This document shows positions 2,606 to 39,500 of a stretch of DNA of 64,000 bases, in pieces. Position 1 is the first letter of the stretch. Every line of letters starts with the position of its first letter. The position numbers and the translations under genes are program-made. Location of the stretch: NCBI RefSeq assembly GCF_030546645.1, contig NZ_JAUOTO010000001.1, forward strand, positions 372,001 through 436,000, read 5' to 3'. Source of the DNA: Flavitalea plasmicola. Its GTDB lineage: Bacteria > Bacteroidota > Bacteroidia > Chitinophagales > Chitinophagaceae. The notes below the pieces were generated by a model, which was not told the origin of the DNA, searched no databases, and saw only the letters and a list, made by a program, of their open reading frames with translations.

Positions 2606-4292
2606 AAGCTATCCCGCGGGGCACCGCGGCTATCAGCTTCTCCGTATAGGCCGATCGTGGGTGATCGTATACTGCCGCTGCATCCCCGATCTCCTCTATC
2701 CTGCCTTTATTCATCACCAGGATACGATCACTGATATACCGGATCACCGACAGGTCGTGGGAAATGAAAACCACGGTGAATCCAAATTCTTTTTTCAGGT
2801 CATTCAGCAGATTGAGCACCTGTGCCTGCACGCTTACGTCCAGTGCGGATACGGACTCATCGCATACGATGAAAGAAGGTTGCAGGGCCAGCGCCCGGGC
2901 GATGACGATCCGCTGTCTTTGGCCGCCGGAGAACTCGTGAGGGTAGCGGTCGTAATGGGAGGCGGAAAGGCTGACCTTTTCCAGCAGCTGTATCGTTTGC
3001 TGTCGGCGTTGTGCGGCGGTGGCGGCGCGTCCATGTACTTTTAGCACTTCCGCAATGGCGGCCCCGATGGTGATGCGCGGGTTGAGGGAGGAATAAGGGT
3101 CCTGGAAAACGATCTGGATATGGCTGCGTAATTTTTTCAGCTCCTGGCTGGTGTAAGTTGCCATATCCCTTCCTTCGAATGCGATGGTACCGCCGGTCGG
3201 CTGGATCAGTCGCAGCAAAGCCCTGCCCAGTGTGGTCTTACCGCAGCCCGACTCACCCACCAGACCCAGGGTCTCTCCTTTATAGATGTCAAAGCTGACA
3301 TTGTCCACCGCCTTTGTGTAGGCGAGGGCTTTGCCCAGGAAGCTTTTGCGGGAGGGATACCAGACCCGCAGATCGCGGACCCGGATCAGTACGTCGGCTG
3401 TGAGCTGCAAGCCGTGAGCTTCGGGCCGGGGGGATAGGTCCCGTCCTTCCATAAAGTCACTTACGACAGGCAGCCTTTCCCCTTTGACGTGCAGTGCCGG
3501 CCGGCAGAGCAGCAACCCTTTTGTATAGGGATGTTGCGGACGCCGGAACAGGTCCTCCACGTTGCCCTCTTCCACAACTTTTCCCTTATAGAGGACCAGC
3601 GCTCTGTCCGCGATCTCGGCCACGACGCCCAGGTCATGGGTGATGAAGATGACACCCATATGCTCCGTCCGCTGTAGGTCGCTGATCAATTCCAGGATGG
3701 TTTTCTGCACAGTGACATCCAGGGCCGTCGTAGGTTCGTCACAGATCAACAGCGAGGGGCGGTTGCTCATGGCCATGGCGATCATCACCCGCTGTTTCTG
3801 TCCGCCGCTGAGCTCGTGGGGATATCGGGAATAGATACCCGCAGGGTCCGGCAGCCTCACTTTTTCGAATAATTGTATGGCCTGGCGGCGCGCTGAATCC
3901 CCGGACACCTGCTGGTGGACCCGGATCGCTTCCGCCACCTGGTGCCCGCAGGAGAACACAGGGTTCAGAGAGGTCATAGGCTCCTGGAAGATCATGGCGA
4001 TCTCGTTGCCACGGATGTTTTGCATGGAGCGATGGTCCTGCCGTAGCAGATCGATGACAACGCCCTCACGTGTGGTGAACAGGATCTGTCCCGACCTTAT
4101 ATGGGCCGGAGGCATGGGCAGTAATTGGAGAATGGAGAGAGACGTGATGGATTTCCCCGACCCCGACTCTCCGACCAATGCGACGATCTCCCCCTTTTCT
4201 ACTTCCAGGTGAATAGCCTGCACCCCCGGCGATATACCGGCCTCTGTTCTAAAATCTATGGTGAGATCCCTGATCGATAATAAAGAAGGCAT
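2589..4292 (-). CDS. Fused two-domain ABC transporter ATPase (oligopeptide DppD-DppF / YejF type)
   Basis: The 567-residue protein holds two complete nucleotide-binding domains. NBD1 has Walker A GESGSGKS (41-48), signature LSGGQ (161-165) and Walker B LLICDEP (181-187). NBD2 has Walker A GESGCGKT (346-353), signature FSGGQ (454-458) and Walker B with DES (478-480) in place of DEP. This matches fused peptide/nickel/microcin-type importer ATPases, which power import with permease and binding proteins. None of those partners is in the window. Residues about 290-299, in the linker between the domains, are encoded by an AGCTGCAAGC-type repeat, and the C-terminus runs into the downstream repeat array. 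It probably shares a transcript with the lipoprotein 40 bases upstream. Confidence 0.93.
3397..3423. repeat. Repeat copy inside the ABC ATPase gene
   Basis: This stretch contains TGAGCTGCAAGC and GTGAGCT, units of the same family as the array at 2443-2605. It encodes roughly residues 290-299, exactly in the linker between the two ATPase domains, where extra residues should be tolerated. It is in frame and leaves both domains whole. Confidence 0.6.
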
Positions 4293-4780: not shown

Positions 4781-5551
4781 TTAAAACCGGAGGTGTCTTA
4801 CCGTGACGCCATTGTTGATCAGCTGCTTCAGACTGTCGATGCCGATCCGGATGTGATTTTCCACAAATTGGGAGGTGATCTTCAGGTCGCTTTCCGCGGT
4901 CTTCACTCCTTCCGGCACCATGGGCTGATCGCTCACCAGCAACAAGGCCCCCGTGGGGATCTTGTTAAAAAATCCGACTGAAAAGATGGTGGCGGTCTCC
5001 ATATCGATGGCATAGGCCCTGATCTTTTTCAGGTATTCTTTAAAAGCCTCGTCATGCTCCCATACGCGTCTGTTCGTCGTATATACCGTGCCTGTCCAAT
5101 AATCTACGGCATATTCCCTGATCGTGGTGGAGATGGCTTTTTGCAGGGCGAAGGCCGGCAATGCGGGCACTTCAGGTGGAAAATAATCATTGGAGGTCCC
5201 TTCTCCCCGGATAGCGGCTATAGGGAGGATCAGGTCGCCCAGCTTATTCCTTTTCTTGAGGCCGCCGCATTTCCCCAGGAAAAGGACGGCTTTGGGCTCG
5301 ATGGCCGTCAGCAGATCCATGATCGTGGCGGCGCCCGGGCTACCCATCCCGAAATTGATGATGGTGATCTCTCCAGCAGTGGCACATTGCATGGGCTTGT
5401 GGAGACCCACTACCTCGACATTATGCCAGTCGGCGAATAATTGCACATAATTCTCGAAATTGGTAAGTAGGATATACTTGCCGAAGTTTTCCAGCTGCTG
5501 GCCTGTATAACGGGGCAGCCAATTATGTACAATCTCATCTTTGGTTTTCAT
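4781..5551 (-). CDS. amn: AMP nucleosidase, short Bacteroidota form
   Basis: The 256-residue protein belongs to the purine nucleoside phosphorylase/AMP nucleosidase fold. Visible hallmarks are NFGMGSPGAATIMDLL (substrate-binding glycine loop), VLFLGKCGGLK, and the nucleoside-site motif AIDMETATIFSVGF with the conserved MET. The C-terminal ALLLVSDQPM is also typical. The enzyme splits AMP into adenine and ribose 5-phosphate in the cytoplasm. The length fits the short form common in this phylum, which lacks the N-terminal regulatory domain of the proteobacterial enzyme. It is divergent from the nuclease-domain gene, with only 32 bases between start codons. Confidence 0.88.
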   Translation of the reverse strand: MKTKDEIVHNWLPRYTGQQLENFGKYILLTNFENYVQLFADWHNVEVVGLHKPMQCATAGEITIINFGMGSPGAATIMDLLTAIEPKAVLFLGKCGGLKKRNKLGDLILPIAAIRGEGTSNDYFPPEVPALPAFALQKAISTTIREYAVDYWTGTVYTTNRRVWEHDEAFKEYLKKIRAYAIDMETATIFSVGFFNKIPTGALLLVSDQPMVPEGVKTAESDLKITSQFVENHIRIGIDSLKQLINNGVTVRHLRF

Positions 5552-5583
5552 TGCGTAAATTTAGCAAATAGTTTCGTCAACAC

Positions 5584-6027
5584 ATGATCAAGATCTACTA
5601 TCCTACGCATTCCTTCAAGATACGGGAGCCTGAGCGCGGCAAGGAAGAAATATGGGATGAGCTTCGGAAATTGTGGGTACGGCTTAACCCGGAGGAATGG
5701 GTCCGCCAGAATTTCATACAATATTTGCTGCAGGTGAAGAATTACCCGGCCAGCTATCTGGCGGCGGAAAGGAATATAAAGCTGGGTGAGCTGAATAAAC
5801 GGTTCGACCTCATGGTGTTCGATCGCAGCGCCCGTCCCTGGATGCTGGTGGAATGCAAGGCCATGGACGAAAAGCTGAACAGCCGCGTGATGTGGCAGGT
5901 ACTGCGTTACAATATGGCTGTCCCGGTGAAATACATTGTTATTACGAATGGGGAGGAATGCCATGCGTTTGTACGGGGAGAAGTGGATTTTGAGGAGATC
6001 GCGGTGTTGCCGGGGTATGATGAATGA
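5584..6027 (+). CDS. Stand-alone HsdR N-terminal-like PD-(D/E)XK domain protein
   Basis: The 147-residue protein resembles the type I restriction enzyme R-subunit N-terminal domain family that occurs as small single-domain proteins in Bacteroidota. The fold signature is visible: a conserved acidic residue in RFDLMVFD (about residue 79) and VECKA (about residues 97-101), matching D...ExK of PD-(D/E)XK nucleases. The helicase and HsdM/HsdS partners of a restriction system are absent from both sides. The role is unknown; DNA cleavage is possible but not shown. The gene ends against intergenic repeat copy A. Confidence 0.8.
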   Translation: MIKIYYPTHSFKIREPERGKEEIWDELRKLWVRLNPEEWVRQNFIQYLLQVKNYPASYLAAERNIKLGELNKRFDLMVFDRSARPWMLVECKAMDEKLNSRVMWQVLRYNMAVPVKYIVITNGEECHAFVRGEVDFEEIAVLPGYDE

Positions 6028-6076
6028 GGGTAGGGGCTCCCTGGATTGATTAGGCGATGGCAGGTTTTTCTTTATT

Positions 6077-6345
6077 GCTATTCACGACAGCTATAACCGA
6101 GCGGAGCGAAGCGCTTGGTCGGCTGCCCGCGAATGGGCATGTGCGGATTTGTAAAGAGAGCGGCTTGCAATGCAGGGGTTTTGAGGTTGACCCTGCCGTG
6201 GAGCCGCCTTACCTTTCCTACGGTGGAGATTTATGAAAATGTTTGGTAATAGTTGTCGTTGAAAAAAGTACTCCGATCCATCGAAGATGGAAAGTACAGC
6301 GGCGGAACGGTTAGGGTCGCCGAAAATGCGGAGAAGCAAAAACTA
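6077..6345. repeat. Dispersed intergenic repeat, copy A
   Basis: This gap of about 315 bases between convergent genes holds no gene that I can support. It is colinear, in reverse orientation, with parts of the region 29627-30220. Bases 6295-6323 match the reverse complement of 29662-29690 at 28 of 29 positions. Bases 6181-6211 match the reverse complement of 29769-29799 at 26 of 31. The segment near 6094-6111 matches the reverse complement of a segment near 30014-30031 at 17 of 18, and 6079-6095 matches the reverse complement of bases near 30198-30214. Copy A therefore looks like a shorter version of copy B. It also contains a local hairpin around ACCGAGCGGAGCGAAGCGCT. Confidence 0.8.
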
Positions 6346-7230
6346 CTGATGAAAACTCACCCCAATAAACGCCAGCGCATCGGTGATCCCTGTCCGCCAG
6401 TAGGTCCAGGAATGCCCCCCATCGCGTACGCGGAATTCATGGGGCACATGCTTATCCATCAGCGCAATATGCAGCTCGCAGTTGGCCCTGGAAAGGCCGT
6501 CATCGTCACCGCAATCGATCCAGTAACGGACTGACCTCAATGCATCAGCGGATCTTTCCTCCACGATCTTCAGGGGAGAATTGGCATACCAGGCTTTGGT
6601 GAGCCTGTCCTTTCCTTTCACTCCCCGGCCGTACAGCTGTGCGAAAGTCCTGTTGTATTGCTCGTCCGCCATTCCACTCATCGTAACATCATCGAAGACC
6701 GCCGCGCTGAGGGGGGCCGCAGCAGCAAAAAGCTCCGGGTATTTCAGGGAATAGATCAGGCTGCCGTATCCGCCCATGGATAGGCCGGCAATGCCGCGGT
6801 AATGCTTTTCTGCCTTGATCCGGTAACTCTTTTCGATGGCAGGCATAAATTCTTTGATAAAGAAGTCCTCATACTTCTCCTTGCCGTCAAAGGAATTGAT
6901 GTACCAGCTGGAGTCCCCGTTGGGCATGACGATGATCATGGGAGGGATGGTGCCTTCGGCAATGGCCTTGTCCGCATACCGGTCGATCTCCCCGAATTGC
7001 AGCCAGCCCGTATTGTCGTCCGTGTAGCCATGGAGGAGATAGACAACGGGGTAGCTCCTTTCCGAGGTTTCATAGTCCGGGGGCAGGTAGATCGTATAAT
7101 TTACATTCTTCCCAAGAATGGCGCTGCTGATGATCTTCTGTTCGATCACCTTGCCTGCGCGCTGGCCAGAAGTGCACAGGGACAAGGAAAGAATGGTAAG
7201 GCAAAAGGTTAATTTTTGCAGAGAGGGCAT
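6343..7230 (-). CDS. Secreted alpha/beta-hydrolase, esterase family (PF00756-like)
   Basis: The 295-residue protein has an N-terminal signal peptide (MPSLQKLTFCLTILSLSLCTSGQ). An alpha/beta-hydrolase core follows: YPVVYLLHGYTDD (oxyanion region), nucleophile elbow GLSMGG with Ser151, an acidic DCGDDD stretch (about 239-244) and catalytic His273 in RDGGHSW. This is the pattern of the esterase D / feruloyl esterase / antigen 85-like family that cleaves carboxylic esters, often on plant cell-wall sugars in bacteria of this group. The substrate cannot be read from the sequence. The stop codon sits at the edge of repeat copy A. The gene is monocistronic as far as can be seen. Confidence 0.88.
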   Translation of the reverse strand: MPSLQKLTFCLTILSLSLCTSGQRAGKVIEQKIISSAILGKNVNYTIYLPPDYETSERSYPVVYLLHGYTDDNTGWLQFGEIDRYADKAIAEGTIPPMIIVMPNGDSSWYINSFDGKEKYEDFFIKEFMPAIEKSYRIKAEKHYRGIAGLSMGGYGSLIYSLKYPELFAAAAPLSAAVFDDVTMSGMADEQYNRTFAQLYGRGVKGKDRLTKAWYANSPLKIVEERSADALRSVRYWIDCGDDDGLSRANCELHIALMDKHVPHEFRVRDGGHSWTYWRTGITDALAFIGVSFHQ

Positions 7231-7293
7231 AAAGGCAACTGTTTGGATTACAATTTAAGGAACTATGGCCATACGAACCATAGGTTCGTCGGT

Positions 7294-8046
7294 TCAATTG
7301 CGCGCAATGTATATTTTCGTTTGATAGTCGAAATGGACCACGCCATCCTTTTGCCAGGTGACGAAGATCTGCCGGAGTTGCTCCATCATTTTTTTATATA
7401 TGTCATTTTCTTCAATTGGTATGTAGGAGGAGGAGAGCAGGCGGCCTTGTAATCTTTCCCAATCGAAGGTCTGCCTATTCCCGGTCACCTTCAGCTGAAA
7501 GGGCATCGGCTCGAAAAAAACCTCGATCTCCTTCAGGGTGATATTAGAATGGTTCACCTGGGCATAGTCCGTTCCAAATTCCCGCAGCAAGCCTTCATAT
7601 GCTTTTTCGAATCCCGAATCCACCTGACGCTCATTCCACATAAGGGCGAGGGAGCCACCGGGTCTGGCTATCCGCCGAAACTCCTTCCTGGCGGCTACTG
7701 GTTCGAACCAATGAAAGGCCTGACTGGCAATGACGAGGTCTGCGCTGGATGCCGCCAACCCTGTATGCTCTGCTGTTCCGTTGATGCTGATGAATCCCGG
7801 ATGGCTGCCCAGGAGCGCTGCTGCTTTTTCACGCATGGCATCGTTGGGTTCCACTGCATATACGGTATTGCCATTGTCCAGAAAGAGGGTGGTGGAAATA
7901 CCGGTGCCGGAGCCGATGTCGGCGACTTTCCAGGTGGGGGAAAATCCGGTGGTTTCGGAAAGAAGGTCCAGCACCGCCGCAGGATAGCCGGGGCGGTATT
8001 TAACGTAGTTGTCTACGCGGTTACTGAAGCGATGGGTGTTGTCCAT
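7294..8046 (-). CDS. Class I SAM-dependent methyltransferase
   Basis: The 250-residue cytoplasmic protein shows methyltransferase motif I VADIGSGTGIST (about residues 38-49), the acidic end of the next strand in VYAVEPNDAMREKA, and motif IV-like ADLVIASQAFHWFEP. The overall layout resembles type 11/25 small-molecule methyltransferases. A substrate is not predictable. It is flanked upstream by a strong terminator for the preceding minus-strand group, so it should have its own promoter within about 15-50 bases before the start. The next gene downstream, the esterase, is 63 bases away on the same strand. Confidence 0.88.
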   Translation of the reverse strand: MDNTHRFSNRVDNYVKYRPGYPAAVLDLLSETTGFSPTWKVADIGSGTGISTTLFLDNGNTVYAVEPNDAMREKAAALLGSHPGFISINGTAEHTGLAASSADLVIASQAFHWFEPVAARKEFRRIARPGGSLALMWNERQVDSGFEKAYEGLLREFGTDYAQVNHSNITLKEIEVFFEPMPFQLKVTGNRQTFDWERLQGRLLSSSYIPIEENDIYKKMMEQLRQIFVTWQKDGVVHFDYQTKIYIARN

Positions 8047-8060
8047 AAAATAAACTGCAC

Positions 8061-8097
8061 AAAAAAGCCGTCCGCCAGCTGGCGGACGGCTTTTTCT
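8061..8097 (-). terminator. Rho-independent terminator after the tdk-ccm-gdh group
   Basis: Bases 8067-8090 are a perfect GC-rich palindrome (GCCGTCCGCCAG and its complement) flanked by six A on the left and a T-run on the right. It can therefore end transcription from either strand. Its position 16 bases after the gdh stop codon fits termination of the minus-strand group. Confidence 0.9.
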
Positions 8098-8105
8098 TAA
8101 AATCT

Positions 8106-9524
8106 TTACGGAAAGATCCCCAATTCCGCATAGCTGGTGCCCACCTTATTAATAGCCACCACATAAGCCGCTGTCCGCATATCGGGGATATCCGGCATGC
8201 TCTTCCAGGCCGTCATGATCTCCCGCGTGGCGGCGATCATCGTCTCTTCAAGACCGCTGTACACCAGGTCCACCTCATCGGCGCCATGCAGGATAAATTC
8301 TTTTTCCGCAGGCGACACTTTCTTGCCCGTGAGGCCTTCTATCTGACCCAGGATATGGGTATTCATATTCTCGGTAAAGCGCTTTTCCATGCGGCCATAA
8401 CGCACGTGGCTAAGGTTTTTCAGCCATTCGAAATAGCTGACGGTGACACCTCCCGCATTCAGGTACATGTCGGGTACCACGAGGGTGCCTTTCTTGATGA
8501 AGATCTCATCCGCCTCCGGTGTGAGGGGACCGTTGGCGGCTTCGCCGATGATCCTGGCTTTTACGTTCGGAGCGTTCTTCCCATTGATGACATTCTCCAA
8601 TGCGGCGGGTATGAGGATATCGCATTCCAGCTCCAGCGCATCCCCGGAGTTAGGGATATTCGTGGCGCCGGGAAAGTTCAGGATGCTGCCTGTCTTCTTC
8701 CTATGTTGAAATACTTCTTCTTCGTTGAGGCCTGCCGGATTGGTGATGGCGCCTTCAAATTCGGCGAGCGCGATGACCTTGGCGCCGCCTTCGCGGAAGA
8801 ACTTAGCTGCATGATAGCCCACATTACCCATTCCCTGGACGACAACGGTCTTTCCTTCGATGCCGGGTTTTAGCTTGAGGCGGCTCATCACATCCTCCAT
8901 GTTGCAGACCTCGCGGATGCCATAGAACACGCCCAGGCCGGTGGCTTCCCGGCGTCCGCGTACCCCGCCTTGTGAGACAGGCTTGCCTGTGACGCAGCCA
9001 AGCGCGTCGATCTCGCCGGGGCGCATGCTCATATAGGTGTCCAGGATCCAGGCCATTTCACGCTCGCCCGTTCCGTAGTCCGGCGCGGGTACGTCCGTGC
9101 CCGGGCCGATGAAGTTCTTTTTGATCAGCTCGGACGTATAGCGACGGGTGATCTTTTCCAGCTCGTAGGGTGTATATTTCTTCGGGTCGATGGTGATCCC
9201 GCCTTTTGCGCCGCCAAAAGGTACATTCACGATGGCGCATTTGAAGGTCATGAGGGCCGCCAGGGCCATCACCTCATCCAGGTTGACCGAAAGGGCAAAA
9301 CGGATCCCGCCTTTACAGGGTGTTTTGTGATGGGAATGCTGAACACGATAAGCTTTGATCACTTCTATCTTATCGCCGATCTTTACGGGGAAGAACATCC
9401 GGTATACGGCATTGCATTGTTTGATCTGTTCCAGGATGCCGGGATCCCAGGAGGTATGCTTTGCCGCCTTGTCAAAACTTTTTTCTACTGCTTCAAAGAA
9501 TTTGTACTCGATTTGTGCCGCCAT
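8106..9524 (-). CDS. gdh: Glutamate dehydrogenase (Glu/Leu/Phe/Val dehydrogenase family)
   Basis: The 472-residue cytoplasmic enzyme converts glutamate and 2-oxoglutarate, linking nitrogen and carbon metabolism. Visible family marks are the substrate region [15 protein letters not shown], the core [22 protein letters not shown], and the Rossmann loop [16 protein letters not shown] that binds NAD(P). The length is a little above the usual 410-450. Near the C-terminus it carries an extra helical region of the type seen in Bacteroidota homologues. Cofactor choice (NAD or NADP) is not clear from sequence. It is the last gene of a group beginning at tdk, 20 bases after ccmD, followed by a strong terminator. 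Confidence 0.92.
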
Positions 9525-27870: not shown

Positions 27871-27972
27871 AGCTACACTGCAGTGGGCGCAGGAAGAATT
27901 TACGAAATTTTCTCGTGAAAAAAAGTCTCATTTTGGACTATTTTGACGCTCCCCGCCGTCTTATTTTCGTCG

Positions 27973-27998
27973 TTGCACAAGCTCACATTCCTGTGCAA
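27973..27998. other. Inverted repeat upstream of the mobilization genes, candidate oriT element
   Basis: TTGCACA (27973-27979) and TGTGCAA (27992-27998) form a perfect 7-bp inverted repeat with a 12-base loop, nine bases before the MobC-like start codon. Relaxase targets often hold such a repeat next to the mob genes, but it could equally be the binding site of the RHH protein or chance. Confidence 0.35.
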
Positions 27999-28006
27999 AC
28001 CTTACC

Positions 28007-28327
28007 ATGAATGAAAAGGAAAAGAAAAGGTTCATCTCCATCCGTCTGACGGAAGCCGAGTTCCAGAAGGTTCAGCGGCTCATTGCATCCTCTGCCTGCC
28101 AAAGCCAGACCGAATACGTCAAAAAAATATTGACGAACAAGCCCGTCGTGATGAAGATCCGGGACCAGTCAAAGGATGACCTCCTGGAATGCCTCATCAA
28201 TTTAAAGACCCGGCTCGATCTTATAGAAGACAAGGCCGCCGATAAAGCGTGTCCGCAGCTGCTGGAAGAAATAAGAGAGACCCGCACCATCATCCAAAAA
28301 ATATATGTACAATGTTCGCATATGTAG
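28007..28327 (+). CDS. MobC-like ribbon-helix-helix mobilization protein
   Basis: The 106-residue basic protein begins KKRFISIRLTEAEFQKVQRL, the ribbon-helix-helix pattern of relaxosome accessory proteins (MobC/MbpA type), and then QTEYVKKILTNKPV. The C-terminal half (about 65-104) is a charged helix with heptad spacing, likely for dimer or relaxase contact. Such proteins bind the origin of transfer and help the relaxase nick DNA. The gene overlaps the start of the relaxase gene by 16 bases, the usual arrangement. An inverted repeat lies just upstream. Confidence 0.8.
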   Translation: MNEKEKKRFISIRLTEAEFQKVQRLIASSACQSQTEYVKKILTNKPVVMKIRDQSKDDLLECLINLKTRLDLIEDKAADKACPQLLEEIRETRTIIQKIYVQCSHM

Positions 28328-29607
28328 ACAGCTCCCACCGCCCGCGCCTCACCCTGGATTACAACGAGCACAAGCTCACCCAGGGCAAAGCCCTGTTCAT
28401 CGCAGCTTTCAACTACTGGGAAGATGCGGACAAGCTGCAATGGAGCCAGAAACTGGAGCGCCTGCACGAACGCTCCCTGCGCAGCGAGCGCGTTCATAAG
28501 AACACGGCCCACATGACCCTGAATTTCCATCCCCAGGATAAGCTCTCGGACAGGGATATGAAGCTCATCGCCGCCCGGTACCTGAAAGACATCGGTTTTG
28601 CAGATCAGCCCGCCCTGGTCTACCGGCACCTGGACGCCGGCCATCCCCACCTCCACATCGTGGCCTCTAATATCCGCCATGACGGTACCCGCATCAGCAA
28701 TGATCTCCGATCTCCTTACCACCTTAAGCAGGTCTGCCAGCAACTGGAAAAGATCCATCACCTGACTCCCGTCAGGGAATTGACGCCCGAAGCCCAGCAC
28801 CTGCGTCAAGCGCCCCGGCAACACATACAACGACTTCAATACGGGCAGGGTGCGACCCGCACCGGCATCGAAAATGTGCTGCATCATGTATTGGATAGAT
28901 ACGCCTATACTTCGATCGGTCACCTCAACGCGATCCTAAGCCGCTACAACGTTATGGCAGACAGAGGTAGTGAGCAAAGCAAGCTGTATCAGCACCGGGG
29001 CCTGTACTACCGCATGCTGGACGACGAGGGAAAAAGGATCGGCGCGCCTATCAAAGCCAGCGCCTTCGACAGCCGGCCAGCCCTGGATTATCTCGAAAAG
29101 AAGTTTGAAATAAATCAGGTACAGCTCCAAAAGAAAGACCATCAACTACGTATTACTGCCAATCTCGAATGGCACTTGCTCAAACAAAAAGAAGGCGACC
29201 CCCTGGAAAAGCTTGTCAACAACCTGCAGAGAGAAGGTATCCTGGTGGTGAGGGATGTTCCCCGCAGCCGCCAGACCCAGTCACAGGATGGCCACGGTTT
29301 TTATTATATCGATTTTGAAAAAAGCACGATCTATCGGGACACCGACCTGGGGGAAAGGTACACCGCCCTCTCGATCTTCCAAAGGACGAAACTGGATAAA
29401 ACCCTGGAAGAGCTGGTCCATAAACAGCAGCTGCACCTCACCCATCACAAGGAATCCAGCATCCTGCAGGACTCCGATCCCCTGAAAAAGCTCCATCTCT
29501 GGATAAAGCTCGTCCCACAGCACGACCAGCTGACGAGGACATTGCAGAAAGAGCAGGTGCTAAAGCATCACAAAAGGCACCATCATACCATCATGCATGA
29601 TTTGTAG
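28312..29607 (+). CDS. Relaxase / mobilization nuclease (Bacteroides MobB type)
   Basis: I use the ATG at 28312 (431 residues), as the upstream TTG frame lies inside the MobC-like gene. Relaxase motifs are visible: the N-terminal DYNEHKLTQGKA, a histidine motif HLDAGHPHLHIVASNI (metal-binding HxH), and LQYGQGATRTGIENVL. The segment LNAILSRYNVMADRGSEQSK is close to what I recall of relaxases of Bacteroides conjugative and mobilizable elements. The enzyme would nick oriT and pilot single-stranded DNA. There is no coupling protein, integrase or replication gene nearby, so it is an orphan or a remnant. Decayed repeats begin within about 30 bases of the stop codon. Confidence 0.88.
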   Translation: MFAYVDSSHRPRLTLDYNEHKLTQGKALFIAAFNYWEDADKLQWSQKLERLHERSLRSERVHKNTAHMTLNFHPQDKLSDRDMKLIAARYLKDIGFADQPALVYRHLDAGHPHLHIVASNIRHDGTRISNDLRSPYHLKQVCQQLEKIHHLTPVRELTPEAQHLRQAPRQHIQRLQYGQGATRTGIENVLHHVLDRYAYTSIGHLNAILSRYNVMADRGSEQSKLYQHRGLYYRMLDDEGKRIGAPIKASAFDSRPALDYLEKKFEINQVQLQKKDHQLRITANLEWHLLKQKEGDPLEKLVNNLQREGILVVRDVPRSRQTQSQDGHGFYYIDFEKSTIYRDTDLGERYTALSIFQRTKLDKTLEELVHKQQLHLTHHKESSILQDSDPLKKLHLWIKLVPQHDQLTRTLQKEQVLKHHKRHHHTIMHDL

Positions 29608-29626
29608 CTTTCAGAGTTCTATTCGA

Positions 29627-30259
29627 TTCTCCGCACTTTCGGCGACCTTCTCTCCGCTTGGTCGGCGACCCTAACCGTTCCGTCGCTGTAATTTCTCTTT
29701 CTGTCAGCATCGACGCTCCATCAACCGATACATAATTCAACAGAAGCAAAAAAATCCACCATCGAAATTAAGGCTCCTGCACGGTAGGGTCGACCTCAAG
29801 GCCCCGGAATGGCAATCCACCACCTTTAATCCTTCAAACTCGCCCCAAAGGCTAATTCGCACCCCGCTTGTCCAATCCCCACTCGCCCCATCCGCGGCCA
29901 TCCGATCAAGAGCTTCGTCGGAACGTCGTCCCTAGAACTTCGTCAGAGCTGCGTTCCTTGCTCTTCCTTGTTCGTGACGTTCGCTTCCCTCCGTCACTCC
30001 TCGCTCGTAACCTTCGCTTCGCTCGGTTAGGCCTGGAGGAGCCTTATCATTGGGCCAGCGCATTCAGCCACCACGGCACAATAGCAATTCCAGCTCACCA
30101 GAGAACAAATGCCCAATGGTACCCAATGTACAGCGACGGAAGGCACATAGCTGTCGGGAGTAGCGCAACGTACCCAATCTACAGCGACAGAAAGCCATAG
30201 CTGTCGGGAATAGCACAACATACTCAATCTCCAGCGACGGATACCCAATCTCCAGCGCG
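29627..30259. repeat. Dispersed intergenic repeat, copy B (longest)
   Basis: This 695-base gap between the relaxase and the next gene has no supportable gene; the 110-residue frame at 29868-30200 is made of repeat sequence. Its first part (29627-30035) matches copy A in reverse orientation. Its second part (30030-30160) matches copy C at 39281-39407: both read GGCCTGGA, then CCTTAT, CAGCCACCAC, CAATGG, TACAGC and ATAGCTG in the same order. The stretch GGTCGCCGA-GCGGAGA is doubled locally (29630-29670). The plus strand is strikingly pyrimidine-rich around 29940-30020. Confidence 0.8.
30120..30259. repeat. Tandem repeat of about 50 bp
   Basis: Units begin TACCCAAT at 30120 (51 bp), 30171 (50 bp), 30221 (21 bp, partial) and 30242 (18 bp, partial). 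Each full unit carries TACAGCGAC, then GGAAGGC or a variant, ATAGCTGTCGGG and an A/G-rich end. The partial units keep only the left half. Confidence 0.85.
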
Positions 30260-30302
30260 TAAGCTAATTTTTTTTCGGATATTTGAGAAAAGCCTGACGC
30301 GT

Positions 30303-38037: not shown

Positions 38038-39226
38038 TGCAGCCTTGCAGGCGGAGTTCCGTGACGAATTGAGGCATATCCTGGACTATTGGCGGCAGTT
38101 CACCATTGACAATGCCCATGGAGGATTTTATGGCAGGCTGACCAATGACAACCACGTGGTGGAGGGCGCCGTGAAGGGGGCGGTGCTGAATGCCCGGATC
38201 CTGTGGAGCTTCTCCGCGGCCTACCTGTTGGAAGAGGACCCCGGCTATCTGCAGTTGGCGGAAAGGAGCCTGGCCTATATCAGGCAACACTTTGTTGACC
38301 AGCAGCTGGGGGGCGTGTACTGGTCCGTTACAGCCAGCGGCGAGCCCGCGGATACAAAGAAGCAGATCTATGCGATAGCCTTTGTCATTTATGCCTTGGC
38401 GGAATTTCACCAGGCTAAGGCTGATGATGATGTGCTGGAGCTGGCTAAAAAATTATACAGGGATATAGAGGACCACAGCTATGACAGGATCCGGGGAGGC
38501 TACATGGAGGCCTTCACCCGTGACTGGCAGCCTATTGCGGACCTGCGCCTCAGCGATAAGGATGCAAATGAAAAAAAGACGATGAATACCCACCTCCATA
38601 TCCTGGAGGCGTACACCAATCTCTATCGTGTCTGGCCTGATGACCATCTTGCCCAAAAAATCCGCCACCTTATCGACGTTTTCACCGATCATATCATCGA
38701 CCTCCGCACCCATCACCTTCACCTGTTCTTTGACGAGGATTGGGCATTGCGGTCTGATTTCATTTCCTATGGCCATGACATCGAAGCCTCCTGGTTGTTG
38801 CTGGAAGCGGCGGAAGCGCTGGGGGATCAGGCCCTTATCCGGGAAACGAAGGACCTGGCCGTAAAGATCGCCATTGCGTCGACGGGCGGATTGAACCCCG
38901 ATGGCAGCCTGAGCTATGAGTTCTCCCGGGAAGACAACCGCCTGATCGCCGAAAGGCACTGGTGGGTCCAGGCCGAGGCGATCGTAGGCTTTCTCAACGC
39001 CTGGCAGCTGACGGGAGAAATGCATTTTCACCGGATTTTCCAGGCCGCCTGGACGTATACGAAAAAGTATATCATCGATGGGCAGAAGGGGGAATGGTTC
39101 TGGGGCCGCACGGCGGATGGCGCCATCATGGAAGGAGAGGACAAGGCCGGCTTCTGGAAATGTCCTTATCATAATAGCCGGGCCTGTATTGAGGTGATCA
39201 GGCGGCTTGAGCCTGCCTATACGTGA
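38027..39226 (+). CDS. AGE-family sugar 2-epimerase (cellobiose 2-epimerase-like)
   Basis: The 399-residue enzyme has the alpha/alpha-barrel pattern of the N-acylglucosamine 2-epimerase family. Diagnostic segments are AHGGFYGRLTND, KGAVLNARILWSFSAAY, NTHLHILEAYTNLYRVW, SYGHDIEASWLLLEAAE, ERHWWVQAEAIVGFLNAW and the C-terminal DKAGFWKCPYHNSRACIE. These fit cellobiose 2-epimerases, which turn beta-1,4-glucosyl or mannosyl-glucose into the mannose form. It lacks a signal peptide, so it acts on imported sugars. The gene overlaps the NUDIX gene by 11 bases. A relative such as mannose isomerase is possible. Confidence 0.85.
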   Translation: MENNAALQAEFRDELRHILDYWRQFTIDNAHGGFYGRLTNDNHVVEGAVKGAVLNARILWSFSAAYLLEEDPGYLQLAERSLAYIRQHFVDQQLGGVYWSVTASGEPADTKKQIYAIAFVIYALAEFHQAKADDDVLELAKKLYRDIEDHSYDRIRGGYMEAFTRDWQPIADLRLSDKDANEKKTMNTHLHILEAYTNLYRVWPDDHLAQKIRHLIDVFTDHIIDLRTHHLHLFFDEDWALRSDFISYGHDIEASWLLLEAAEALGDQALIRETKDLAVKIAIASTGGLNPDGSLSYEFSREDNRLIAERHWWVQAEAIVGFLNAWQLTGEMHFHRIFQAAWTYTKKYIIDGQKGEWFWGRTADGAIMEGEDKAGFWKCPYHNSRACIEVIRRLEPAYT

Positions 39227-39280
39227 CTGTAGACTGCTAAATGCTCCACTCGCATACTCCGCGGCCAGGCGGTCAGCTAT

Positions 39281-39455
39281 GGCCTGGAAGTGCCTTATTT
39301 TGCGCCGGTCATCCAGCCACCACCGTCCAATAGAACACCCGCACAACAAAGAACCAATGCTCAATGGTAACGAAAAATACAGCACTGGAAGGCTCATAGC
39401 TGCCGCCAACAAAAAGTACAGCGCTGGAAGGCTATATAGCTGCCGGCAAAGAATA
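39281..39455. repeat. Dispersed intergenic repeat, copy C
   Basis: The gap 39227-39528 (302 bases) holds no gene. From 39281 it matches copy B from 30030 in the same order: GGCCTGGA, CCTTAT, CAGCCACCAC, CAATAG, CAATGG, TACAGC, ATAGCTG. Two internal half-repeats (39374-39410 and 39411-39451) share TACAGC, CTGGAAGGC and ATAGCTGCCG. The repeat ends just upstream of the sigma-factor promoter region. Confidence 0.8.
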
Positions 39456-39469
39456 AAAGGCAAAAAATC

Positions 39470-39500
39470 TTTCAGCCCTGTAAGTAAAAGAATAATTTTA
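39470..39500 (+). promoter_or_regulatory. Candidate promoter of the ECF sigma operon
   Basis: TTTC at 39470-39473 and TAATTTTA at 39493-39500, 19 bases apart, resemble the Bacteroidota -33 and -7 boxes (TTTG and TAnnTTTG). The start codon is 29 bases downstream. GTGAGG at about 39514-39519 could serve as a ribosome site. Confidence 0.35.

Follow-up and report, generated by a model that had tools for sequence, protein, structure and literature searches.

A dispersed family of long imperfect palindromes in Flavitalea plasmicola, probably a non-autonomous, REP/BIME-like mobile DNA

The window, a stretch of 64,000 nucleotides (C11:372001-436000 of the host genome G000, which comprises 8.73 Mb in 19 contigs), contains four units of a dispersed family of imperfect palindromes. 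With a probability of about 0.6 we regard the family as copies of a non-autonomous, hairpin-forming mobile DNA of the REP/BIME kind, in which the arms match each other as DNA and the boxes between them stay mismatched. In the literature consulted there is little on the palindromic repeats of Bacteroidota or on what moves them. Here a single genome provides more than 50 divergent copies that covary clearly and keep their mismatches, and a syntenic relative has empty sites, so that the question of whether mobile DNA is recognised by its fold or by its sequence can be asked directly.

The initial annotation had described blocks of 6077-6345 (element A) that are colinear, in reversed order and orientation, with blocks of 29630-30214 (element B) and are separated by differing insertions, and had taken the two for one element and not for chance similarity. 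Local alignment of 6027-6360 with the reverse complement of 29600-30302 confirmed this arrangement. The score of 176.5 was far above that of 500 dinucleotide-preserving shuffles of B (mean 75.2, maximum 100.5), so the likeness of A and B withstood the shuffled controls. A search for more copies in the host genome yielded 48 DNA matches to A (E<=1) and 65 to B (E<=0.1), the query being counted in both cases. The outlines of the copies had to be redrawn. The repeat at 6077-6345 is real, but the natural unit is 6182-6324 on the minus strand, within an element of 6028-6342. B does match A, but it consists of two inverted units, the second of which along the window is broken by another repeat, and is not a single copy. 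A further copy at 39268-39407 had been overlooked, which brings the window to its four units. The features, with bit scores of a covariance model of the unit (R1), are as follows.

6028..6342, no strand: element A; fills the entire gap between two convergent genes, whose orthologues in relatives abut (G006) or lie 24 bp apart (G013)
6043..6083, plus strand: leader of element A (GATTAGG...TTTTTCTTTATTGCTATTC), an outer arm common to several composites; ends set by eye
6085..6131, plus strand: remnant of unit 1 of A, recognised by comparison with intact composites; ends set by eye
6182..6324, minus strand: complete palindromic unit of element A, being unit 2 of a composite that has decayed; R1 123.5 bits, E 8.9e-32
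29608..30302, no strand: element B, made of two inverted units and interrupted by an insertion; DNA and R1 matches
29661..29798, plus strand: unit 2 of B; R1 101.1 bits
29910..30030, minus strand: second dispersed repeat (AACCGAGCGAAGCGAAGGTTACGAGC...) inside unit 1 of B; DNA matches, ends approximate
30018..30158, minus strand: unit 1 of B, with the second repeat breaking the right P1 arm; R1 97.1 bits
30159..30258, minus strand: tandem partial copies of the left arm of the unit with a period of about 50 bp; repeat finding
39212..39480, no strand: element C, in a gap of 302 bp (about 60 bp in G006); ends approximate
39268..39407, minus strand: unit of element C; R1 118.9 bits

The unit is an imperfect palindrome of ~140 nt. 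Arm segments designated P1, P2 and P3 flank a centre of about 65 nt, and non-complementary boxes lie between them. In P1, for example, CGGCAGCTAT-N-GCCT faces AGGC-ATAGCTG-CCG; P2 has five pairs, two of which are often mismatched, and P3 about eight, the first being A-T. In the outer box TCC faces TCC, TTC or TAC, and in the inner box TGT faces AAG. The centre occurs in two main forms and carries scattered invariant bases. When the better copies are aligned, their nested inverted repeats vary from copy to copy yet pair (ACATTGGG/CCCAATGT, ACTTTGGG/CCCAAAGT, ACATTCGG/CCGAATGT, AAATTCGG/CCGAATTT). The median pairwise identity of the 62 distinct units is 0.58. TCC is nevertheless found in 54 of them, TGT in 57 and AAG in 60, and the two sides of the outer and of the inner box are complementary in none (0/62 each). 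In two units TGT/AAG has changed in step to TGA/TAG: the third T of the box pairs with the first A opposite, and the T.G plus G.A mismatch stays. Arms that pair, next to mismatches that are protected, suggest that the DNA folds and that something recognises the fold.

Predicted folding of the units as single-stranded DNA gave a mixed picture. The arms were drawn for 39268-39407 and for two units located elsewhere (z -3.21, -2.96 and -4.75); for 6182-6324, P1 and P2 formed and P3 did not (z -2.42). The two units of B hardly exceeded their shuffles (z -1.34 and -0.10); this and the missing P3 of 6182-6324 count against the main reading. RNAalifold applied to the centres only returned no structure in two of three alignments, and in the third the P3 stem alone, at about -1.

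Using R1 we found at least 59 matches in G000 (E<=1; 150 of 1,871 first-look candidates scored). At least 55 of these are strong (E<=2.6e-9); the four with E above 1e-4 were left out before grouping, and the remainder fall into 40 loci. Inverted pairs are present at 13 of the 40, always in the order plus then minus, and one locus has two pairs. The units are placed outside plausible genes: 38 of 55 share no more than 40 nt with any ORF of at least 100 aa, 15 are crossed only by ORFs of 103-137 aa whose frames span the elements, and the remaining two are overlapped by longer frames, of 337 and 463 aa, read as antisense. Opposite the 337-aa frame there is an epimerase gene, which has a Pfam match. 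A coding reading was dropped, since open frames of ~120 aa do cross some copies but the steps in centre length are not multiples of three. With ORFs that overlap the locus by more than 40 nt disregarded, a mechanical assignment of ORF context classed 11 of 39 loci as convergent, 22 as codirectional and 6 as divergent. Convergent placement was found for 8 of the 12 composites with known context (one locus at a contig end dropped) and for 9 of 49 ORF pairs of the window, namely neighbouring pairs among 50 hand-picked ORFs (p 3e-4); for all loci the same comparison gave p 0.09.

Outside the host the distribution of the family is patchy. Matches at the DNA level were obtained in 2 of 39 genomes, and R1 matches in 6 of 33 genomes of the host genus (at most 98 candidates scored per genome), the host being included in both counts. 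The positive genomes have 58 (the host's own), 7, 2, 2, 1 and 1 matches, the weakest being that in G046 (E 0.004). Stricter filters, under which the host itself kept only 13 matches, were used in a scan of 244 genomes from the same bacterial family, and at least four genomes including the host were positive; two of these belong to another genus and score weakly, yet the P2-box-P3 core is present. The exact left-arm pattern had no match in a named genome collection, in which the host genome is perhaps not included. A blastn search of plasmids and phages with a single composite locus likewise gave no match, nor did one pattern among viral contigs. Judged from titles and abstract openings, no description of this family was present among the papers listed by literature searches.

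Comparison with relatives revealed sites that lack the element. At site A the gap between the two genes measures 315 bp here and 0 bp in G006, where the orthologues abut (..GATGAGTAG|CTACTGATG..). In further genomes with orthologous, adjacent genes it measures 24 bp (G013), about 92 (G016), about 183 (G018) and about 256 bp (G039), and G016, G018 and G039 gave zero R1 matches anywhere among at most 98 candidates scored per genome. At site C the distance from the stop codon to the next ATG (39529) is 302 bp, compared with about 60 bp in syntenic G006, where the end of the upstream gene differs as well. Composite D (C16:223422-223826) lies in a gap of 655 bp that is about 80 bp in G006; at A and D the element is missing from G013 as well as from G006. 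B is part of a 2.4-kb block (27871-30302) missing from G006, in which about 56 bp separate the neighbouring genes; the G013 gap at this site is about 750 bp. Beside B, positions 28007-29607 hold a MobC-like ORF, which scores below the Pfam curated cut-off, and a MobA/VirD2-type relaxase ORF. Judged from these ORFs the block is possibly a mobilisation island, and B may have arrived together with them and not as a repeat alone. Of the four informative sites, three (A, C and D) differ by the element alone; all four are without the element in G006. At a fifth site (C16:196618) the next ORF matches nothing in G006 or G013.

From this distribution we infer that the occupied state is derived and the empty state ancestral; the empty sites could possibly also be due to loss in G006 instead of gain in G000. 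Target-site duplications, which the initial annotation had proposed to look for, were not seen at A or D, and the 7-bp match TGATGAA at A already has counterparts in the empty site. Defined ends, its other expected mark of a mobile element, are sharp at A and D but nowhere else. Its suggestion of a non-autonomous mobile element is upheld by the many copies, the relative's empty sites and an element that is without a transposase. The hairpin GAAAAGCCCAATCATAGGGTACGAACCTATATTGAGCTTTTTC at G000 C16:223878-223921, beside site D, is kept in G006 and G013 and resembles a bidirectional terminator.

Among the alternatives the one that survives best is a MITE, which we consider unlikely. MITEs such as Correia, ERIC and BOX are short, non-autonomous and modular and possess inverted arms. 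By this explanation, the DDE transposase of an insertion sequence located elsewhere recognises the ends as double-stranded terminal inverted repeats. The inverted terminal arms, the intergenic placement and the lack of a transposase ORF would fit, as would an outer inverted repeat, TTAGGTGCTTTG / CAAAGCACCTAA, which is present on several composites. The family differs from a MITE in that its arms co-vary within each copy: the units are divergent, yet the arms of a copy match each other, which recognition of double-stranded ends does not need. That no duplication was seen at A or D would also speak against a MITE, and a parent transposon with the same ends was not found in G000 with the outer-repeat pattern. 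Nine of the ten matches to this pattern are at element loci and the tenth lies within a 557-aa ORF; the outer repeat was therefore rejected as the end of an insertion sequence, its sole off-element match falling inside an ORF.

The covariation of the arms bears on a second alternative, a structured RNA (a 3' untranslated element or a small RNA) that spread by duplication and whose compensatory changes reflect selection for the RNA fold. Two alignments were analysed. A1 was made with MAFFT from sequence alone and holds 39 distinct units (one duplicate removed). Both partners have changed in 18 of its 24 pairs, in 149 cells compared with 60.6 +/- 5.6 after shuffling. The covariation score is 0.386, as opposed to 0.146 +/- 0.011 for shuffles and at most 0.090 when the partners were slid; a measure of further pair types was no higher than in shuffles (30 vs 30.0). 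A2 is a model-fitted alignment in which 68 matches from 49 loci, seven of these loci in G006 or G013, give 62 distinct rows; it scores 0.429, compared with 0.156 shuffled and at most 0.065 slid, a value that is structure-biased by construction.

The kind of pairing should help to tell DNA from RNA: on its own strand, a structured RNA is expected to have clearly more G.T than A.C. Forty units were extracted with a regular expression that allowed few box spellings and required six of eight P3 pairs, G-T allowed, which makes the pairing of P3 partly built in but not that of P1 and P2. Their 680 cells comprise 606 Watson-Crick pairs, 2 G.T, 3 A.C and 69 others, the bulge position having been picked to maximise Watson-Crick pairs, a small bias; 61 of the 69 are confined to the final position of P3 and two positions within P2. 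Without a choice of bulge, the 1,472 cells of A2 comprise 1276 Watson-Crick, 37 G.T, 57 A.C and 102 other cells. This pairing is less clean than that of the 40 units and counts against the main reading; 17 of the 37 G.T cells come from a single column pair with an unresolved extra 3' G. As a yardstick, six well-formed tRNAs of the host and related genomes (those of 14 ARAGORN predictions that are free of mismatches) contain 117 Watson-Crick and 11 G.T pairs, that is 11 of 128 paired cells (Fisher 1.7e-7 against the units); ARAGORN brackets standard pairs only, so A.C cannot be counted for the tRNAs.

G.T is thus not above A.C in the units, and this, together with boxes that are never complementary, favours a DNA palindrome over an RNA. 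An Rfam scan of 16 loci gave no match at E<=1 that falls on a unit, and no terminator- or promoter-like excess was detected at A or B, for which reason a terminator reading was dropped. The element is moreover missing at the syntenic sites of relatives. The strong covariation as such, the conserved internal boxes, the scattered invariant bases of the centre and the convergent placement of the composites would be accounted for by an RNA. On balance we judge the structured RNA, which the initial annotation had listed as an option, to be improbable, its standing lowered by the near absence of G.T pairs and of Rfam matches on units. The comparison of G.T with A.C in paired arms suggests itself as a simple discriminator between DNA palindromes and RNAs for covarying intergenic elements. 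A pairing in trans that would join both units of one composite through P2 (gtcgc/gctcc) was rejected as well: single units have the same P2, and the pairing fails in a C12 pair, as read from its sequences.

Many loci are mosaics. In B the left arms are tandemly repeated. The second dispersed repeat (AACCGAGCGAAGCGAAGG...) interrupts at least six units at differing points, as read from the copies, and it also occurs where no unit exists, for example at G000 C17:463656 and C3:181741. In A it has replaced most of unit 1, the order of the remnant being left P1, what is left of the second repeat as a short hairpin (about 6095-6115), and right P1. Hairpin tips swapped between copies suggest recombination or template switching at hairpins, perhaps alongside movement. 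At the right edge of one composite, G000 C1:152440-152530, there is a tandem array of a 23-bp unit (TCGCCGAAAATGCGGAGAAGACG). Template switching in replication (quasi-palindrome correction) as the sole process that keeps the arms alike, in a family without a recognised function, is highly improbable: it agrees with the near Watson-Crick-only covariation, the lack of a strand preference, and the tandem left-arm duplications and swapped tips that suggest slippage and switching, but correction alone is insufficient where the boxes have been made complementary in 0/62 units. It could act together with the mobile DNA proposed here.

For the mobile hairpin-forming DNA that we favour, the mechanism would be the following. 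An enzyme acting on single-stranded DNA and supplied in trans would recognise the folded unit, presumably through the TCC/TNC and TGT/AAG boxes and not through the sequence of the arms. This enzyme would copy or move single units and inverted pairs into intergenic gaps, probably by copying rather than by cut-and-paste, and the inserted units would then decay to partial copies. A narrower version is offered tentatively: the enzyme might read shape and not sequence, so that the arms would be free to change as long as they pair, and strand and position would be marked by two mismatch boxes that stay fixed. Integron attC sites are recognised as folded single strands, with arms that vary freely and unpaired features that are fixed. 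The likeness of the units to them, a fold read with free arms and fixed mismatches, is an analogy of principle only; on the shape-reading version, which for this point too is a doubtful proposal, the units would be attC-like elements outside integrons, occurring as inverted pairs with exchangeable tips.

Several candidates for the mobilising enzyme were considered. G000 encodes a 198-aa protein that resembles TnpA_REP subclass 2.6 (motifs read by eye). In 12 of 12 aligned proteins of this type (L187-L198), drawn from 20 matches in 17 genomes, the tyrosine of the motif YIH[QN]NP is replaced by H or E, and the protein is likely a retained binding protein. Units are present in 6 of the 17 genomes with the protein and in 0 of 16 without it (p 0.018, an association confounded by both genome size and relatedness), and R1 detected no unit at E<=1 around 12 named relatives of the protein. 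The RAYT was therefore rejected as mover, given that no linkage to units was seen at the loci scanned and that the motif tyrosine is lost in all 12. The whole-genome search for a transposase family was made with PF01797; at 10 Y1 transposase loci R1 found no unit at E<0.1 (best E 0.29). One IS200-like (Y1_Tnp) protein of 142 aa, at L086 1477-1905, is encoded between ORFs read as aromatic-amino-acid biosynthesis genes and looks domesticated. The relaxase was discarded as well: the window relaxase and MobC match no other examined region of G000, and no part of 11 unit-bearing stretches of related genomes (E<=1e-3 in both cases).

In arrangement the family resembles REP, BIME and REPIN elements, being made of dispersed, imperfect, intergenic palindromes that occur singly or as inverted pairs, are mosaic and non-autonomous and have internal bulges. 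The REP-like structure proposed in the initial annotation is borne out to this extent by palindromic units, many copies and inverted pairs. It differs in length, ~140 nt with a long centre as against the 20-40 bp given for REPs in PMC3733652. A GT[AG]G foot is present at the 5' side of 2 and the 3' side of 5 of 55 units, with about 12% expected by chance per end, and no linked active RAYT was found at the loci scanned. With this length, without the foot and with no RAYT linkage found, the family is not filed as a member of REP/BIME; it is best read as REP/BIME-like in arrangement, a new long form several times the known repeat length. TnpA_REP subclass 2.6 genes of Bacteroidetes are, according to excerpts of PMC6006769, flanked by atypical secondary structures that have no GT[AG]G foot and have copies elsewhere in the genome. 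The present units are likewise footless, dispersed and from Bacteroidetes, a likeness to the description excerpted from that paper (PMC6006769) only; they differ in that the RAYT-like genes tested here have no flanking unit.

Flavo-1 RNA (RF01705) is also a repeated structured element in Bacteroidota, to which the excerpts of PMC2864571 and PMC9723704 assign no function. It differs from the units, on which themselves no Rfam match (E<=1) was obtained at 16 loci. Flavo-1-like stretches adjoin a GGGCAGCCC-type unit at three of six loci, with 30.3-33.5 bits, below the cut-off of 42 bits. Units of the GGGCAGCCC type (L131 5000-5600 and 9330-9930; L132; L134; L136) follow a conserved stretch, and at the three of six loci it is the opposite strand of this stretch that resembles Flavo-1. 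After several of these units comes a further palindrome whose TGT/AAG core is similar. Two of the units are located among ORFs read as RHS-type, and in L132 a large ORF (5173-9000), read as a Cas9-like candidate, is located downstream of the unit at about 3988-4127.
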